Shown piece after piece: positions 14,482 to 54,296 of a DNA stretch of 64,000 nt (within the stretch, counting starts at the first letter, position 1; each line of letters opens with the position of its first letter). A program made the position numbers and the translations under genes. The stretch spans positions 1 through 64,000 of the forward strand of contig SHVB01000001.1 of assembly GCA_009694375.1 (NCBI GenBank). The letters run 5' to 3'. The DNA is from Acidimicrobiia bacterium. Lineage in GTDB: Bacteria; Actinomycetota; Acidimicrobiia; Acidimicrobiales; VFJN01. The notes below the pieces were generated by a model that did not search any database, was not told the DNA's origin, and worked only from the letters and a program-made list of their open reading frames with translations.

Positions 14482-16295
14482 ACCGTTCCCGTGCCGTGCT
14501 ACTCACCTTGACACTGACCTTGGTGGCGAGCGCCTGCTCGGCATCCAAGGAACCGAGCGCCAACGGCCTGGAGGACCCCGGTAACTGCACCGTCATCGAC
14601 CTGGCCGTGTCGCCGGAGAAACGCGACTTGCTCACCGAACTGGCCCAGGACTTCAACGCGAGCGACCAGGCCCGCGACGGGGATCGCTGTTTCTTTGCCC
14701 GCGTGCAGGCCAAGTCATCCGGGGCAGCCGCTCAATTGTTGTCCAGCGAGTGGGACGAAACCGCTGAGGGTCCCCGTCCGGTTATCTGGTCTCCTTCGGC
14801 CTCCACCTGGGGTGCGATTGTGAATCAACGCCTCGAGGCGCAAGCCGAGCCTCCCCTCACCGGCGAATTCACCTCATTCCAACTCACACCGCTGGTCATC
14901 GCCATGCCCAAGCCCATGGCGGAGGCGCTCGGCTGGCCCAAAGAGCCGCTGGGCTTTGCCGACATCCTGGCGCTTTCACAGGACCCCGCTGGCTGGGCCG
15001 CCTACGGCCACCCCGAGTGGGGCCCGTTTCGCTTAGGCAAGACCAACCCCAACTTCTCTACCAGTGGCCTCTCGGCACTTCTGGCCCAGGCCTACGCCGC
15101 CAATGAGAAGACCGCCGGCTTGTCGATCGAAGACCTCCAGAAGCCCAGCACCTCCGTCTTCGCCAGCGCCATCGAGTCGTCGGTAGTGCATTACGGCGAC
15201 ACCACCCTCACGTTCTTGAACAACTGGTACCGAGCGGACCAGCGGGGCAACCCCTACGGCTACGTGTCGGCGGTGGCGGTCGAGGAAAAGTCGGTGATCG
15301 ACTACAACCGGGGCAACCCCGATGGCGTGCTGCAAGACGGCGAGCAGGCCCGGCCTCCTCGCGTACCGCTGGTGGCGATCTACCCCGAGGAAGGCACGGT
15401 GTATTCCGACAATCCCCTCTACGTACTCGATGCCTCCTGGGTCGATAGTGCGCAGAAGAAGGGGGCCGACCGCTTCGTGGACTTCCTGGGCCGCACCGAA
15501 AACCAGAAGAAGATCCTCAAGTTCGGTTTCCGCCCGGGAAACCCGAAGGTGGAAGTGTCTAGCCCCATCGACGCTCGCAACGGGGTAGACCCGAATCAGC
15601 CCCAAACGCTGCTCGAGATCCCCGAACCAGAGGTTCTGGTGCAACTCCTCGCCGACTGGCAGGAACAACGCAAACCGGCCCGAGTGCTCCTTCTCGTCGA
15701 TGTCTCAGGCTCCATGGGAGAGGTAGCCGACCCCGAAACCGGAGCCACGAAACTCGATCTGGCCAAGAGCGCGGCGATCACCGCCCTCGATGAGTTCAAT
15801 GACGACGACGAAGTGGGACTCTGGGTGTTCACGACCGGCCTGCCCGGGGTCGACGGGAAACCCCTCGATCACCTCGAACTAGTACCCCCCGGTCGGGTGG
15901 GCGACGTGGGTGAGAAACTCAAAACCGAGTTGCGCAGCCTCATCCCGCTCGAAGGTACGCCCCTATACGCCGCCACCCAAACGGCCTACCAGAACCAGGT
16001 GGCGTCGTATGATCCAAGTCGGATCAATGCCGTGGTACTGCTGTCTGATGGCATCAATGACGACGGCGACCCCGATGATGACCGCAAGCAGTTGCAAGCG
16101 CTCCTCGCCGCCCTGAGTGAGGGATCAGAGGGACAGGCGAGCCAAAAGGTGCGCGTATTCACGATCGCCTACGGGGAAAGCGCCGATCTCTCCACCCTTC
16201 GTAGCATCGCCGAGACCAGCCAGGCCGCTCTCTACGACTCCAGCGACCCCCGCAGTATCAACAAAGTCTTTGTGGCGGTGGTATCCAACTTCTAG
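14478..16295 (+). CDS. Lipoprotein with substrate-binding-like and VWA domains
   Basis: This is a 605-residue lipoprotein with a signal peptide ending in the lipobox VASAC (lipidated Cys20). Residues about 35-380 form an extracellular solute-binding-like domain (VIWSPSASTWGAIVNQRL, FTSFQLTPLVIAMPKP, SLHY-type central region around 230). Residues about 400-600 are a VWA domain with the intact MIDAS DVSGSM and a downstream LLSDGINDDGD. Such binding-protein/VWA fusions occur in Actinobacteria next to AAA+ ATPases, with no settled function. The ATG overlaps the previous stop. The outer-face VWA domain could bind another protein in a metal-dependent way, but its partner is unknown. Confidence 0.82.
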   Translation: MNRSRAVLLTLTLTLVASACSASKEPSANGLEDPGNCTVIDLAVSPEKRDLLTELAQDFNASDQARDGDRCFFARVQAKSSGAAAQLLSSEWDETAEGPRPVIWSPSASTWGAIVNQRLEAQAEPPLTGEFTSFQLTPLVIAMPKPMAEALGWPKEPLGFADILALSQDPAGWAAYGHPEWGPFRLGKTNPNFSTSGLSALLAQAYAANEKTAGLSIEDLQKPSTSVFASAIESSVVHYGDTTLTFLNNWYRADQRGNPYGYVSAVAVEEKSVIDYNRGNPDGVLQDGEQARPPRVPLVAIYPEEGTVYSDNPLYVLDASWVDSAQKKGADRFVDFLGRTENQKKILKFGFRPGNPKVEVSSPIDARNGVDPNQPQTLLEIPEPEVLVQLLADWQEQRKPARVLLLVDVSGSMGEVADPETGATKLDLAKSAAITALDEFNDDDEVGLWVFTTGLPGVDGKPLDHLELVPPGRVGDVGEKLKTELRSLIPLEGTPLYAATQTAYQNQVASYDPSRINAVVLLSDGINDDGDPDDDRKQLQALLAALSEGSEGQASQKVRVFTIAYGESADLSTLRSIAETSQAALYDSSDPRSINKVFVAVVSNF

Positions 16296-47085: not shown

Positions 47086-47164
47086 GTGGACCCCTACTGT
47101 ATCGGCCGACGCGAGGGTCCCCGACATGCACCTGCCCTCCGAGGGCCTATCGTGCACCCCGTCA

Positions 47165-47239
47165 CGGGGAGTAGCGCAGTGGTAGCGCACCTGCTTTGGG
47201 AGCAGGAGGTCGGGGGTTCAAATCCCCCCTCCCCGACCA
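47165..47239 (+). tRNA. tRNA-Pro (anticodon TGG)
   Basis: The 7-bp acceptor stem CGGGGAG/CTCCCCG, D arm, anticodon stem CCTGC/GCAGG with loop TTTGGGA (anticodon TGG at 47197-47199), T arm with TTCAAAT, discriminator A and encoded CCA are all present. The 3' half is the integration site of the mobile element to the right. Confidence 0.97.
47192..47237 (+). repeat. attL: 46-bp att core in the 3' half of tRNA-Pro
   Basis: This 46-base stretch is repeated exactly at 52815-52860 and spans from the anticodon stem to the discriminator plus first C of CCA. The integrase gene starts 86 bases downstream and reads away from the tRNA, the usual layout for tRNA-targeting elements. Confidence 0.95.
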
Positions 47240-47284
47240 CTCTGACCAGGTGTTATACTGACTCAGCGAGCCGGCGATCATCGC

Positions 47285-47304
47285 ATGTATCAGCGATGTA
47301 TCAG
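47285..47304 (+). repeat. Tandem ATGTATCAG repeat near attL (possible integrase arm sites)
   Basis: ATGTATCAG occurs at 47285-47293 and 47296-47304, 11 bases apart (one helical turn), between attL and the integrase start. This is a usual place for arm-type binding sites. Confidence 0.45.
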
Positions 47305-47323
47305 AATCCGGCGGGAGGCAGCC

Positions 47324-48490
47324 ATGGGCTGGAAGGCCATCGGAGACCCCACCGTCCGCAGGCAGCGTGACAAGTGGGTGGTGCGCGTCGATGGAATCGA
47401 CACCGAGACGGGCCGGCACAAGTCGCGGCAGCTCGGCACGTTCCCGTCCAAGCGAGCGGCAATCAACGCCTCCCGGTCGACATCGTCGGAGGACCTCGTG
47501 TCGGAACGGGGCACCCTCGGCTGGCTCGTCAAGCGATACGTCGCGTCCCGCACCGACGTCTCGGTCAAGGCGCGCGAGCAGTACGGGTGGGCGGCGTCGC
47601 ACATCGAGACGGGGCTCGGTGCTATCCGCGTCGACCGGCTCGAGCGCGAGGACATCGCTCGGTGGCTGGACGAGATCGCCGCGGCCGGCAAGCTCTCGCG
47701 GCGCAGCGTCCAGATCTGCCGCAACGTCCTCCGAGCCGCTCTGGCCGACGCTGTCGATGAGGGCCTGCTACGTCGTAGCCCAGCCACGCGCGTGGCCATG
47801 CCGCGCCATGTGGCCAAGCCAGTGCGCGAACGAGAAGTCAAGGCGTGGAGCGCCCAGCAGGTCGACGGGTTTCTCGCCACCACGAACGAACATGCGTGGG
47901 CGGCGGGGTTCCGATTGGCGGTCCTTTACGGCCTCCGCCGCAGCGAGCTGCTCGCTCTGCGCTGGGACGACTTCGCCGCGAAGGAGGGAACCATCCGAAT
48001 CGACGAGGGCCTCGTGGCGACCGCAACCGGGGCTACGTGGACCGACGCCAAGAACACCCGATCGCGCCGGGTGATCCCGCTCGACCAGGAGACGGTCAAG
48101 GCCCTGGCCGCTCGCAAGCGGGCCCAGGCCGAGGAGCAGCTGCTCGCCGGGGCTGGCTGGAGCGACCAGAACCTCATCTTGACGACGCGCACCGGCAACG
48201 CGGTGATGCCCCGGAGCTTCGACCGAACGCTGGACGTGCTCGTGAAGCGGTCCGGCGTTCCCCGCCTCAGCTCCCATGGCCTCCGCCACACCGCCGCCAC
48301 CCACATGGTGAGCGGGGCGGCTGATCTCGGTGAGCTCCGGGCCGTCGCCGACATCCTGGGGCACAGCCCGGAGATCCTGTTGAGCGTCTACGCCCACGCG
48401 CTGCCCGCCAGCGTGCGCGCCGTCGCCGATCGGATCGGCCAACGCAGCGCCGTCCTGCGGACCGAGCCAAGCGGTCCGTCCCCGTCGTGA
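47324..48490 (+). CDS. int: Tyrosine-type site-specific integrase
   Basis: This 388-residue phage-type integrase has an N-terminal arm-binding domain (RRQRDKWVVRVDG, SRQLGTFPSKRAA), a core-binding SAM-like domain (about 60-150) and a catalytic domain with Arg in VLYGLRRSELLALRW, HGLRH near the C-terminus, GHS and the nucleophile Tyr in ILLSVYAHA. GGAGG five bases before the ATG at 47324 decides the start over an ATG 39 bases upstream, which sits in a repeat. It integrates the element into tRNA-Pro. Directionality factor: none identified; the small HTH protein at 48906 is one candidate. Confidence 0.94.
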   Translation: MGWKAIGDPTVRRQRDKWVVRVDGIDTETGRHKSRQLGTFPSKRAAINASRSTSSEDLVSERGTLGWLVKRYVASRTDVSVKAREQYGWAASHIETGLGAIRVDRLEREDIARWLDEIAAAGKLSRRSVQICRNVLRAALADAVDEGLLRRSPATRVAMPRHVAKPVREREVKAWSAQQVDGFLATTNEHAWAAGFRLAVLYGLRRSELLALRWDDFAAKEGTIRIDEGLVATATGATWTDAKNTRSRRVIPLDQETVKALAARKRAQAEEQLLAGAGWSDQNLILTTRTGNAVMPRSFDRTLDVLVKRSGVPRLSSHGLRHTAATHMVSGAADLGELRAVADILGHSPEILLSVYAHALPASVRAVADRIGQRSAVLRTEPSGPSPS

Positions 48491-48577
48491 CACCTCATCC
48501 AGGTCCGGCACCTTGGTGGAGACTCGCCCTCGTAGGCGTAGCCAACCTTGCGCTCAACAATCAGCCATGATGAGGTG

Positions 48578-48895
48578 ATGGACACCCCACAGCGAAGCGC
48601 CGTTCGCCGGACGGTTGTGCCGGTTGCGCTGGGCGCACTAGCGATGCTGGCTGCCCTCGTCGGCCCCGGGTGGCTCTCGGGGGCGGTGGCGGTGGTTGGA
48701 GCGCTGGTTGCGGGTGCCTTGAACCCCAACGAACCTGTCCGGGCAGGGGTGCTCACTGTGGCCCTTCCCGTGATCGGTGGGCTTATCCGTGTCCGGACCT
48801 GCCCGGCCAACGACTGGGCGCCCCACGCCACGTTCCCGCCGGACTCCTGGTGGGACGCCCTCGACGCGGCCGACCTGAACCCCCCTCGACTCTGA
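48578..48895 (+). CDS. Small membrane protein of the element
   Basis: This 105-residue protein has two hydrophobic segments (about 12-30 and 32-48), plus a weaker one near 58-70, then a soluble tail with WDALDAADLNPPRL. No family recognised. The ATG at 48578 follows GAGGTG; a TTG 30 bases upstream is an alternative. It is followed 10 bases later by the HTH gene, so they may be co-transcribed. Confidence 0.55.
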   Translation: MDTPQRSAVRRTVVPVALGALAMLAALVGPGWLSGAVAVVGALVAGALNPNEPVRAGVLTVALPVIGGLIRVRTCPANDWAPHATFPPDSWWDALDAADLNPPRL

Positions 48896-48905
48896 AAGGC
48901 CCCGA

Positions 48906-49103
48906 ATGTCCACCAGTGTGAACGACTCCGCCATCGTCGCCGCCCTCGCCACCGGGCTCGGCGACCACGAGACCGCCCGCGTCGCCAACTGCTCCCCCAA
49001 GACTGTCCAACGGAGACGGGCCCTGCCAGACGCCACCCGCCGTGAACGTGGCCGCCTTGCGGGTGGTCGTCACCGCCTACGGAGACCTCACCGACCGCGG
49101 TGA
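48906..49103 (+). CDS. Small HTH (homeodomain-like) protein, possibly frameshifted
   Basis: This 65-residue protein has the segment SAIVAALATGLGDHETARVA then NCSPKTVQRRRALPD, a helix-turn-helix of the kind seen at the start of small DNA-binding proteins in actinobacterial elements. The last 20 residues are Arg-rich and look out of frame. An overlapping frame begins GTG at about 49042 and reads VNVAALRVVVTAYGDLTDRG and LLDRLDALEAALYR, ending at 49173. That would be the natural coiled-coil end of such a protein, so a frameshift or a second small gene is possible. Confidence 0.55.
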   Translation: MSTSVNDSAIVAALATGLGDHETARVANCSPKTVQRRRALPDATRRERGRLAGGRHRLRRPHRPR

Positions 49104-49169
49104 TCTCCTCGACCGCCTCGATGCTCTGGAAGCCGCCCTGTACCGGGACCAACCGCTCCGGGTCATCCG

Positions 49170-49433
49170 ATGAGCCAACGCCCGCCCGATCCGGCTACCC
49201 GCGTCGCCAGGATCGCGGCGACCATGGCCTGCACCCGGTGCGAAGGAACCGGGATCGAACCGGCCCACGTGCCGATGCCCCAGTCCCGGAAGGACGAACT
49301 CATCGCGGAGATCAGACGGATAGCGGCCCGGATGGAGGTCGACCGGGAGGCCGATGTCAGACGACTAGCGGCCCGGCTGGCCACCGACCGGGTTCCGCCC
49401 CCTCCGCAGAGCAGCCCCCGCGTCGGTACGTGA
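49170..49433 (+). CDS. Small zinc-ribbon-like protein with helical tail
   Basis: This 87-residue protein has MACTRCEGTGIEP (Cys21-x2-Cys24, followed by Gly, like half a DnaJ zinc ribbon), then a charged helix KDELIAEIRRIAARMEVDRE. Its ATG overlaps the stop of the preceding small frame (ATGA). A degenerate copy lies at 50860-51085. No function can be assigned. Confidence 0.55.
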   Translation: MSQRPPDPATRVARIAATMACTRCEGTGIEPAHVPMPQSRKDELIAEIRRIAARMEVDREADVRRLAARLATDRVPPPPQSSPRVGT

Positions 49434-49924
49434 GCCCAGCGGGTCAGCCGAGGGCGGCGAGGTACCTCAGTCCCCGGCGGGGTTCCGGCACCACGCCTGC
49501 TATCAGAGCAAGGGGCGACATCGGCGGCCGCTACGACATCGGCGCAGGCCAGGTCGTCGCCGGGGGTCCGCGCCGTCGCCATTTGGCATCAGGTTGGGCA
49601 TCACGGGCCTCCCAGGAGGAGCCGCCTAGCGTCCAGCATGATGACCCGAACCGAAGTCCTTGTAACCGTCGGTGTCGCGCTGGTCGGAGTAGTGCCGTCG
49701 ACGCCGGGAGCGCCTCCACCGGCCGCTGACCCGCGACGTTCGACTGTGCGACAAGGGAAGCGTCGACAGGCGCCTCGGGTCGTCGGCCTCCCCTCCTGTT
49801 CGCGGGCTCGGGAACAGGAGGGAGCGGCAGAGCAGAGTGGCCACGTGGGAGCCTCGGTGAGCACTGCGCGTGCGGAACCACCGCTCCGGACGACCGCGGC
49901 GAGAGGGTCTGTATTGTCGAGCCG
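49434..49924. other. 490 bases without a convincing gene, containing a perfect hairpin
   Basis: No frame shows conserved features. A frame beginning at 49638 reads MMTRTEVLVTVGVALVGVVP, signal-peptide-like, but quickly becomes Arg/Ala-rich with no domain. The stretch contains the perfect inverted repeat at 49791-49822 and leads into the methyltransferase gene, so it may hold that gene's promoter or be a remnant. Confidence 0.5.
49791..49822. repeat. Perfect 11-bp inverted repeat with 10-base loop
   Basis: CCCTCCTGTTC and GAACAGGAGGG flank GCGGGCTCGG. No T-run follows on either strand, so a simple intrinsic terminator is unlikely. It lies 103 bases upstream of the methyltransferase start. Confidence 0.8.
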
Positions 49925-50851
49925 ATGGTCGAGTGCTCGCTCTGCGGATCGAACGTCTGGCGACATCTCCACACCACGAAGGACGGCGTCGCAGCGTTCA
50001 CCAAGGCAGCGACCTTCAACATCTGTGGCACCTGCGGTCTAATTACGCGACACCCGGTCCCGGACTCGACCGAGGACTTCTACCAGCTTGAGTACTGGGG
50101 GGACCGGCCAACCCCCGATCTCCTGTTTCGCTCCGGGGAGAAACAACGGCAGCAGGCCGAGGCAGTACGCGAAATCACCGGGGACCTGTCCCGCACAATC
50201 GTTGATGTCGGATGCGGATTCGGCGCCCTAACCGGCGCCCTGGCTGACGTATTCACGGACGCAAGAGTCGTAGGCGTAGAACCCGACCTGAGGCTCAGTG
50301 AACTTCTTGCCGAGCACAATCAGCGACCGAACGTGAGGATCGCGGCCGCCCCCCTTGAACATCTCACCGAGATCGGAGCTGAGGTAGCGGACCTTGTGGT
50401 GCTGTCGACGGTGTTCGAGCACCTGATCGATCCGGTCGCTGCGCTCGCGACGCTCAGGGCGGTCACCTCCGAGAGGGGATGGCTTCTCATCGTCGTTCCC
50501 GACGTCGATCACCCTGGTCGGTTCGGTCTCGACTGGTTCTTGCGAGATTTCCATCTTCGGTACTACTCCGAACGTACGTTGACGGCGATGCTCGCCACAG
50601 GCGGATTTGAGGTGACGGCCCGTCTCGCCAACCCCGTATTCTCCGGCACGGGGGTTCCGTTCCTTGCGGTCCTGGCCCGCCCAGCCGATCGCCCGCCAAT
50701 GCCCGAGCTGGGAGGTGAGGCTGCCCGCATCGAGAAGCACGTAGATGCCTACAAGAGGCGGACGCGACTCGTGGGACCGGCGCGCTTCGTATGGAACTAC
50801 CGGCTCCGACGTCCAATCAGCAGGGCGGCCGTCCGCCTCTTGCGTCGCTGA
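49925..50851 (+). CDS. Class I SAM methyltransferase with N-terminal zinc ribbon
   Basis: This 308-residue protein has Cys4-x2-Cys7 and Cys34-x2-Cys37 (zinc ribbon), then a Rossmann methyltransferase domain: motif I IVDVGCGFGALTG, acidic strand-2 residue in VVGVEPD, motif IV DLVVLSTVFEHLIDP and PDVDHPGRFGLDWF. This layout resembles methyltransferases in cell-surface glycan and deoxysugar gene clusters. It is cargo of the element, lying between two copies of a small gene. Substrate unknown. Confidence 0.88.
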   Translation: MVECSLCGSNVWRHLHTTKDGVAAFTKAATFNICGTCGLITRHPVPDSTEDFYQLEYWGDRPTPDLLFRSGEKQRQQAEAVREITGDLSRTIVDVGCGFGALTGALADVFTDARVVGVEPDLRLSELLAEHNQRPNVRIAAAPLEHLTEIGAEVADLVVLSTVFEHLIDPVAALATLRAVTSERGWLLIVVPDVDHPGRFGLDWFLRDFHLRYYSERTLTAMLATGGFEVTARLANPVFSGTGVPFLAVLARPADRPPMPELGGEAARIEKHVDAYKRRTRLVGPARFVWNYRLRRPISRAAVRLLRR

Positions 50852-50859
50852 TCGCCTAC

Positions 50860-51085
50860 TCAGGCGGGCTCCGGGATCGAACCGGCTCACCTGCCCGTGA
50901 CCGAGGACCGCAAGGCCGAACTCATCGCGGAGATCCACGGGATATCGGCCCGGATGGAGGCCGAGCGGGAGGCCGAGATCGTGCGGCTAGCGACCCGGAT
51001 GGCCGCCGACCTGGCGAGCGGGCCTCCCCCGAATCCCGAACCGCTACCCAATGGGCGTCGATCGAAGGCGACCGGGGTGGAGTAG
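50860..51085 (+). pseudogene. Degenerate second copy of the small zinc-ribbon-like gene
   Basis: The frame reads GSGIEPAHLPV then DRKAELIAEIHGISARMEAE, clearly similar to GTGIEPAHVPM and RKDELIAEIRRIAARMEVDR of 49170-49433, with similarity also at the DNA level. The CxxC segment is lost through an indel upstream. A GTG at 50897 could still start a 62-residue protein. It reads away from the methyltransferase gene. Confidence 0.6.
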
Positions 51086-51129
51086 TTCCGCGTCCGTCTC
51101 GCCCGGCGGCGCGTGCGGCACTCCGGCAG

Positions 51130-52344
51130 CTATGCCCGCTTCACCCGGAGTCCTTGCGTGCAGTGCTCAGGGGGTGGTTGTACCAAGTAGCGGTCGATGA
51201 GGGGGCCGACTTCATCGGTGCTGGTCGAGCCCGGGAAGCCGATCTCGTCGGATCGACCATCCGCGATCAGGCACCTGTTCCGCGCACCCCAGAACTCCTG
51301 AAACTTAGAGTGGTCGCTGACGTCACTGGGCACAAGGAGAACAGCCAATCCGACCGCAACAACTCCGCCGATGGCGGTAGCAACCGTCGCGACGCGTGAC
51401 ATCCGCACTGGCTGGGATGGCACGCAGGCGAGCAGGACGAAGATCAGGGCGATCAACTGGTAGCGGTTGTATACGTTGTCGAGACCGCGGTCGCGTTCCA
51501 ACGACAGGCCGACCGACCACGTCAAGAGCGCTGCGGTCCACGCAAGCCACGTAGCGCCAGCTCGAATCCCTCGTCGCAGTTGGAACGCTCCGAGGCAGAC
51601 GAACCCTGCCATCAGTAGCAAGTCGATGTGCCACAAATCAAAGGGGGACAGAGCGACATTCCTCGAAGCCCGCAAGACAGCGACCAGCGTCGGATCGGTA
51701 GTGGGCTGGAACTTCGAAGAATCGTGTCTCGTTACTAACCACCAGAGGGCCCAGACCGCCGCGGGGGCCAACGTAGCCACCCACTGACGCCATCGTGCCC
51801 GCGTGCAGGCGCAATGCACCAGACACGCAACCGCGACGGCCACGCCTCCTGTCGTGCCCAACAGCGCCAGCGCCAACCCACCGGCCAGCCACCCGCTCTT
51901 GTCCCGTCGAAGCGCCCAGCCGCAAACCACTGCCCCAAGCCCAACGATGTAGTGGTTGAGGTTGGCTGCCTGGGTCGCGAAGGTCGGCAGGGCAAGCAGC
52001 GCCACGACTCCCCCAGCTGCCAATAGGGGCGAGAGCTGCTCCCGAGTCGTGAGGTACCACGCCACCACGATCGCGAGGAACCACAGCACGGCCGCGACCC
52101 GGAACGGCGTGTAGTCGAGCCCGAACACCTCGACGAGCACCCGGTAGTTCCCGATGATCAGGATGCTGAGGTGGTCGTTGTACGGCTCGACCAGCCCGCC
52201 CCAGTGTTGACCCTGGACCAGTAGCCCCCAATCATCGCCGGCGAACGACAGCCTCCGGCCAGCCCACAAGACGTAGGCACTGAATGCGACAAGGCTGCCG
52301 AGGACCGCCGCGTCCACCACCCGTTCGCCCGCTCGTTCGTTCAT
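51130..52344 (-). CDS. GT-C-like multi-pass membrane protein
   Basis: This 404-residue protein has about ten hydrophobic helices. The first external loop has FAGDDW and NDHLS, shared with the paralogue at the window's left edge. I see no confident Pfam-type match by eye, but the layout (acidic first loop, 9-11 helices, C-terminal soluble tail) fits GT-C glycosyltransferases. It is on the strand opposite the methyltransferase and probably has its own promoter at the right side of the element. Together the two cargo genes suggest modification of a surface glycan. Confidence 0.75.
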   Translation of the reverse strand: MNERAGERVVDAAVLGSLVAFSAYVLWAGRRLSFAGDDWGLLVQGQHWGGLVEPYNDHLSILIIGNYRVLVEVFGLDYTPFRVAAVLWFLAIVVAWYLTTREQLSPLLAAGGVVALLALPTFATQAANLNHYIVGLGAVVCGWALRRDKSGWLAGGLALALLGTTGGVAVAVACLVHCACTRARWRQWVATLAPAAVWALWWLVTRHDSSKFQPTTDPTLVAVLRASRNVALSPFDLWHIDLLLMAGFVCLGAFQLRRGIRAGATWLAWTAALLTWSVGLSLERDRGLDNVYNRYQLIALIFVLLACVPSQPVRMSRVATVATAIGGVVAVGLAVLLVPSDVSDHSKFQEFWGARNRCLIADGRSDEIGFPGSTSTDEVGPLIDRYLVQPPPEHCTQGLRVKRA

Positions 52345-52475
52345 CCGTCCTTCGCCCGTCTCACGCGGGCATCCTGCCCGGTATGGGCGCCTCTGTCATG
52401 CGGGGGCGGTGTCCAAGCCCCTGGGCCGCCACGCTGCGGGGATGACCCCGCAAGCCCCCAGGAGGGCCTCCGGGG

Positions 52476-52664
52476 TCATCGGCGTCCAGCCAAGCGGGTC
52501 TTGGCCCCCGGGGTGGTGCCTGAGCCCGGACCGATCCGCACGAGGGGCCCCGGGCAACGATGCACGGGGCAGGCGGCCACGGGGCCGTCCGCATGGATCA
52601 GGTGCCCTCTGGCGCACTGGTACTGGTACGGCGGGACGTACTTGGCATCGGCTCGCGTGGCCAT
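52476..52664 (-). CDS. Small zinc-ribbon-like protein near attR
   Basis: This 62-residue protein has YQYQCARGHLIH and AACPVHRCPGP, with Cys17, Cys32 and Cys37 plus nearby His residues, suggesting a small metal-binding fold. AGAGGA with good spacing precedes the ATG at 52664. Such small zinc proteins are frequent in actinobacterial integrative elements. No function can be given. It reads leftward toward the GT-C-like gene, with 131 bases between. Confidence 0.55.
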   Translation of the reverse strand: MATRADAKYVPPYQYQCARGHLIHADGPVAACPVHRCPGPLVRIGPGSGTTPGAKTRLAGRR

Positions 52665-52688
52665 GGCGATCCTCTAGGCCGTGGTGCC

Positions 52689-52712
52689 GTTGGCATCACT
52701 GTTGGCATCACC
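52689..52712 (+). repeat. Tandem 12-bp repeat near attR
   Basis: GTTGGCATCAC(T/C) occurs twice in a row, just outside the small zinc-ribbon gene start and 103 bases before attR. It may be a binding site of the integrase or an accessory factor. Confidence 0.45.
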
Positions 52713-52728
52713 GGGGCAGCCGAGACCG

Positions 52729-52796
52729 GCCGACACCAGCCGACAGAGCCACCGGGTGATGCCCGGAACCCCAGGTAGAGCCGACAAAGGCCGACA
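52729..52796 (+). repeat. Four phased GCCGACA repeats near attR
   Basis: GCCGACA occurs at 52729, 52739, 52780 and 52790; the outer pairs are part of an exact 14-base repeat, GGCCGACACCAGCC (52728-52741 and 52789-52802). Intervals of 10, 41 and 10 bases put all copies on about the same helix face, as for integrase arm-type or directionality-factor sites. Confidence 0.5.
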
Positions 52797-52814
52797 CCAG
52801 CCAACGACCGGAGG

Positions 52815-52860
52815 TGCTTTGGGAGCAGGAGGTCGGGGGTTCAAATCCCCCCTCCCCGAC
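52815..52860 (+). repeat. attR: 46-bp att core
   Basis: This is an exact copy of 47192-47237. It holds only the 3' half of tRNA-Pro (no acceptor 5' strand or D arm), so it is not a working tRNA and marks the right end of the element. Confidence 0.95.
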
Positions 52861-52935
52861 GGGAACATCGCGAAGATCCGCCGGCGAGGTCCGGTCGAAG
52901 AGGGGGGCGGGAGGGACTACCCTCTCCGAAACCCT

Positions 52936-54229: not shown

Positions 54230-54296
54230 CGCCGTTCCTACCAGGGCTTTCCAGCGCGAAGGCCCTGGTGCGGCGGGGTCCGGCCGGGCGGCGGGG

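Follow-up and report, generated by a model that had tools for sequence, protein, structure and literature searches.

A tRNA-Pro island of an Acidimicrobiia genome, probably the fused and immobile remains of mobilisable elements

About 5.6 kb of foreign DNA is inserted site-specifically in a tRNA-Pro gene of an Acidimicrobiia host, within the 64,000-nt stretch of DNA analysed in the current study (the window). This island is probably made up of the fused remains of mobilisable elements, and is probably immobile. It is likely to be a composite, in which accretion and deletion joined the left-hand end of an element A with the right-hand end of an older element, B. Exact att repeats next to an integrase do not of themselves define one mobile unit, and here a comparison of arm sites indicates that the two ends have separate origins. 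The analysis also uncovered a by-product that is more interesting than the island, a family of IMEs with MobF relaxases that occupies tRNA-Pro, tRNA-Arg and tRNA-Ala genes in Acidimicrobiia, whose arm sites are conserved and which has a putative oriT motif. The insertion site, the integrase and the island ends comprise the following features:

nt 47165–47239, + strand: intact tRNA-Pro(TGG) gene, the integration target (ARAGORN; Rfam tRNA, 76 bits)
nt 47192–47237, + strand: attL core, 46-bp direct repeat within the tRNA gene (repeat search)
nt 47286–47303, + strand: left arm-type pair TGTATCAGCGATGTATCA, the integrase family's own, present as a single copy in the genome
nt 47324–48490, + strand: tyrosine integrase, 388 aa (Pfam PF00589, phrog_1, relatives at 53–70%, tree)
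nt 49583–49603, + strand: internal arm pair of the second type, GGCATCA-N5-GGCATCA, possibly the left arm of an older element
nt 52476–52664, − strand: 62-aa ORF within the right-end segment (sister species G003: 91% over 55 aa)
nt 52500–52863: right-end segment in common with G003, 94.8%
nt 52690–52711, + strand: right arm-type pair TTGGCATCAC-TG-TTGGCATCAC, which differs from the arm sequence of the integrase family
nt 52815–52860, + strand: attR core, 46-bp direct repeat (repeat search)

The original prediction of an exact 46-bp att repeat in tRNA-Pro(TGG) was borne out by the repeat search and ARAGORN. The two copies are identical over all 46 bp and lie 5623 bp apart, the left one being the portion of the tRNA gene from the anticodon stem to the 3' end, and an exact match of this length at this position rules out a chance origin. 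The 28-bp core of the repeat is found only twice in the whole 2.58-Mb genome, both times at the island ends. An empty tRNA-Pro site, which had been proposed as a check, was seen at the predicted join in a member of the same genus, G001 (the assemblies of G000, the genome carrying the window, and of its genus relatives are drafts). There, only a short spacer separates tRNA-Pro from tRNA-Gly, and the sequence aligns with nt 47130–47237 of the window joined straight to nt 52861 onward, with the junction exactly at the repeat. It is therefore not the case that all relatives carry the same genes without an att duplication. The locus thus combines the features of a tRNA 3'-end integrative element, namely a repeat of the tRNA 3' end, an intact tRNA, an integrase, and an empty site.

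The integrase, correctly placed beside the intact tRNA in the original prediction, matches Phage_integrase (Pfam, E 1.6e-19) and the phrog_1 integrase (PHROGs, E 1.2e-56). Its ORF was listed as nt 47285–48490, and the start was placed at nt 47324 by homology; the listed ATG overlaps the left arm repeat, and relatives begin with MGWKA or MSWKA, a sequence (MGWKA) found in the window at nt 47324. Among 397 genomes of the order, 135 contain matches at E ≤ 1e-20, few with more than 50% identity, and a search of a wider collection returned 23 integrase loci above 40%, mostly labelled Acidimicrobiia, Ilumatobacteraceae or Actinobacteria. Where the upstream flank is included, nearly all of these integrases lie directly 3' of a tRNA. 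In the tree, the window integrase falls in a clade of nine (support 100/99), eight at tRNA-Pro and one at tRNA-Ala, and the group next to this clade targets tRNA-Arg; relatives of the enzyme, then, adjoin tRNA-Pro in other genomes, as a suggested search had sought. A plasmid origin was discarded, plasmid integrases among the matches listed being less than about 28% identical.

Five relatives for which both ends were found span 12–16 kb and have exact att repeats of 44–52 bp:

G320, tRNA-Pro: 15.8 kb, 45-bp att
G320, tRNA-Ala: 16.3 kb, 52-bp att
G400, tRNA-Pro: 12.8 kb, 48-bp att
G401, tRNA-Arg: 14.1 kb, 44-bp att
G403, tRNA-Arg: 12.1 kb, 44-bp att

These five and three further relatives carry one family of large relaxases, and the two that were tested are of the MobF/TrwC type (PF08751, E 5.9e-74, Pfam; NF041492, 231.7 bits, cut-off 100 bits, NCBIfam). 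Most of the eight also encode a small, excisionase (Xis)-like HTH_17 protein, and no type IV secretion genes were found among the scanned proteins of the relatives' elements. The motif ACAGACAGGTGCCCG lies just 5' of the relaxase gene in seven elements (L152, L134, L136, L146, L149, L148 and L151), and is a candidate for the oriT of the family. A review in 2017 knew of no canonical IME encoding MobF (PMC5704250). In the complete genome G320 there are two sibling elements (L134, L136) whose integrases are near relatives; one occupies tRNA-Pro and the other tRNA-Ala, representing a change of target.

All five complete relatives have a TGTATCA-N4-TGTATCA pair at both ends, 42–95 bp inside the left core and 136–149 bp before the right core (n = 5). 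In the window the left pair is situated at 49 and 60 bp from the left core, and no such pair occurs at the right end of the island or in the rest of its genome. The right end has instead GGCATCA-N5-GGCATCA, its two halves 123 and 111 bp from the right core, and, at 58 bp, a single inverted GGCATCA. In layout this is an integrase arm region like those of the relatives, but its sequence differs. Since the arm-type sites beside the two att copies differ, these copies would not be the ends of one intact element. The precise boundaries originally assigned to a single compact element hold for the insertion and the empty site, but the att copies flank mismatched arms. Within the window, the GGCATCA pair is limited to the right end and the one internal copy (near nt 49585). 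A search outside G000 and G003 gave only scattered matches, each with two mismatches, and the one inspected, in G001, sits within an ordinary coding ORF. As none of the 397 genomes of the order yielded an element that combines an integrase with GGCATCA-type arms, element B is reconstructed from its end alone.

Comparison with the sister species places this right end in a longer history. The corresponding segment of G003 holds an att copy matching at 45 of 46 positions, and its identity to the window (94.8%) is like that of the adjacent chromosome (93.9%) and of the clpP-tig side (97.3%). Between tRNA-Pro and attR, G003 has unrelated genes (a tRNA-Gly copy, a SulP permease and a DUF4190 protein), and a close relative of the island integrase is absent from the genome, where the best match has an E value of 1.7e-24. 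Being present in G003 at chromosomal identity and without the integrase, the right end appears to have been inherited vertically and to predate the left end. The extra tRNA-Gly(TCC) copy of G003 lies within its tRNA-Pro island (the two copies are at L036:9966-10040 and 14740-14813), and a 47-bp 3' fragment of tRNA-Arg is found at L036:12800-12846.

From these observations we infer the following order of events. Element B would have integrated in tRNA-Pro before the split between the window's species and G003, and its right end (about nt 52500–52860) would have persisted in both. Element A, from the tRNA-Pro-targeting clade of MobF-relaxase IMEs, would later have entered the same tRNA in the lineage of the window, contributing the integrase and a left end with the arm sites of A. 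The intervening DNA, including the Xis, relaxase, oriT and right end of A, the middle att, and the integrase of B, may then have been lost in a deletion that brought the two surviving ends, the left one of A and the right one of B, together around the cargo. Because attR is without its arm sites, the integrase is presumably no longer able to excise the island efficiently. Successive accretion and deletion at one tRNA would be the most economical history, although the identical 46-bp cores, which count against it, are also compatible with a recent single insertion.

The remaining genes of the island are:

nt 48584–48895, + strand: small hydrophobic ORF, 103 aa, of no family
nt 48906–49172, + strand: HTH gene, likely frameshifted (weak HTH_23/HTH_29 match in the N-terminal frame)
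nt 49170–49433, + strand: 87-aa ORF, its 3' part within a 144-bp repeat
nt 49925–50851, + strand: cargo, class I SAM methyltransferase, 308 aa, with an N-terminal CxxC...CxxC (Methyltransf_23, E 2.6e-17, Pfam)
nt 50897–51085, + strand: 62-aa ORF, a partial, diverged copy of the 87-aa ORF
nt 51130–52344, − strand: cargo, multi-spanning GT-C-like glycosyltransferase, 404 aa (alignment, model, PDB fold search)

No recognisable transfer or replication genes were detected in the island by Pfam and PHROGs scans or by relaxase scans, in agreement with the original prediction. A TrwC relaxase is absent from both the island and the whole of G000, no other relaxase family is represented among the island ORFs, and tblastn with the relatives' genes gave only chance-level matches to a residual relaxase or Xis. 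The ACAGACAGGTGCCCG motif of the relatives is likewise absent from the island, though an oriT unlike it may exist. A third, middle att was not found, the best internal match to tRNA-Pro being no better than those of shuffles. In the HTH gene, the C-terminal part continues in another frame, the end of which overlaps the following ORF at an ATGA. The gene may be a pseudogene, or the shift may stem from misassembly. The 404-aa protein is without a C-terminal domain of about 100 aa that is found in five homologues to which it was aligned. The apparent frameshift, together with the partial duplication of the 87-aa ORF, adds to the picture of decay. With no TrwC in the genome, no oriT motif of the relatives, and two damaged-looking genes, the suggestion that the island is mobilisable is doubtful for the present, and autonomous mobility is unlikely.

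The claim of glycan-related cargo holds at the level of fold only, for a GT-C-like membrane protein and a class I methyltransferase. The 404-aa protein has no match in Pfam or NCBIfam; the motifs D(D/E)W and P(Y/F)N are conserved between it and the five homologues. Its structural model is of moderate confidence (pLDDT 63.6) and has its best PDB matches to GT-C glycosyltransferases (OST, ALG9, ArnT, EmbB, PMT), with high probability yet E values above 0.001. A role of the cargo in surface glycans is plausible, and the proposed change of the cell surface is a guess. A search of 197 other genomes of the order gave no relatives of the methyltransferase at E ≤ 1e-25, and the methyltransferase gene is bracketed by the two copies of the 144-bp repeat (nt 49249–49392 and 50871–51014, 81% identical). 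A reading of this repeat as a tRNA-like T-arm was dropped, as Rfam finds no tRNA there. PADLOC returned just a generic methyltransferase-domain match to mad2, and a defence island was rejected as an explanation.

The island could alternatively be a single, compact and intact non-autonomous element, a relaxase-less IME or 'iOriT'-like hitcher that excises itself with its own integrase and depends on a helper for mobilisation in trans. Its open integrase ORF, identical cores, conserved left arm site and empty site in G001 are all in keeping with this, as is the frequency of relaxase genes in the order (18 of 31 genomes examined). It is nevertheless unlikely, given right arm sites unlike those of all five complete relatives, a right end that is older and common to a species without the integrase, the missing oriT-like motif and TrwC, and the damage to the GT-C-like and HTH genes. 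If the arm specificity of the integrase had drifted, GGCATCA at the right end could be a functional arm of the same element; the two kinds of pair are indeed alike in period (12 for GGCATCA and 11 for TGTATCA), attR layout and ATCA core. The left arm, however, retains TGTATCAGCGATGTATCA exactly as in the relatives, and G003 carries the GGCATCA end without the island integrase, so we regard drift as very unlikely. A functional hybrid, with one integrase acting on att sites that have two arm sequences, would imply a family that regularly trades ends at tRNA-Pro and shuttles surface-glycan genes among Acidimicrobiia without a relaxase, and this we consider quite unlikely.

Phage satellites (PICI, PICMI, tycheposons) are compact tRNA-associated islands with an integrase (PMC11389934). 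The island resembles them in these respects, and its integrase is up to about 31% identical to those of phages, but it has no phage-derived or replication module. Neither Pfam nor PHROGs revealed a capsid, packaging, replication or phage regulatory gene, close integrase relatives (53–70%) occur in cellular genomes only, most of their examined elements carry a MobF relaxase, and all matches to viral contigs are short or weak (26–43%). An origin as a phage satellite or degenerate prophage is thus extremely improbable, and the satellite-like nature first proposed for the island is unsupported.

The composite island is best regarded as a decayed tandem IME/CIME, an already known kind of element and an ordinary class with an unusual history. 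Tandem arrays of IMEs and decayed partners are well known from the ends of tRNA or tmRNA genes (PMC5704250; PMC3146451). Like the IMEs of tRNA 3' ends (PMC5704250), the island has a tyrosine integrase by an intact tRNA, exact repeats of the tRNA 3' end, and cargo, and the relatives of its integrase are tRNA-inserted IMEs that carry a relaxase and in which no T4SS gene was recognised. Like a canonical IME the island encodes its own integrase, which belongs to the MobF-IME clade (100/99), but it encodes no relaxase; of the TGTATCA pairs on both sides and the MobF relaxase that mark this clade, the right arm and the relaxase are missing, and unlike these IMEs it has no family oriT-like motif and has ends with different arm sites. 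CIMEs and tandem accretions related to ICESt1/ICESt3 (PMC5704250) and the ssrA islands of Dehalococcoides (PMC3146451) similarly show successive insertions at one tRNA or tmRNA 3' end and shared cores, with one partner deprived of genes for integration and transfer. Here, by contrast, the middle att is gone as well, the incoming element has retained its integrase, and the right end is foreign. A CIME retains attL and attR but no longer has its integration and transfer genes and thus no integrase, a definition that fits only the older right-hand partner, and tandem accretions have more than two att copies including a middle one, where the island has two.

The tRNA-Pro gene is an insertion hotspot across the order. 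In G009 and G008 it is occupied by compact islands with a different integrase family, the former (L039:4099-10747) carrying an apparent toxin-antitoxin pair and the latter (L041:4827-12603) a MobF relaxase. An island of about 3.7 kb in G018 (L040:487-4207) has the same tRNA and an exact repeat of its 3' end, and encodes a DUF268 protein (possibly glycan-type cargo) and a repeat protein; unlike the island of the window, it has no called integrase and its cargo is unrelated in sequence. Other members of the GT-C-like family were also seen. The window begins within one (nt 13–411, 42% to the island protein), and a further copy is on contig C4 of the same genome. G001 has a 550-aa GT-C-like gene (L037:6280-8483, 41% to that of the island) inserted between tRNA-Lys and an anti-sigma gene, with no evident integrase and flanked by a 39-bp direct repeat (compare nt 54257–54295 of the window).
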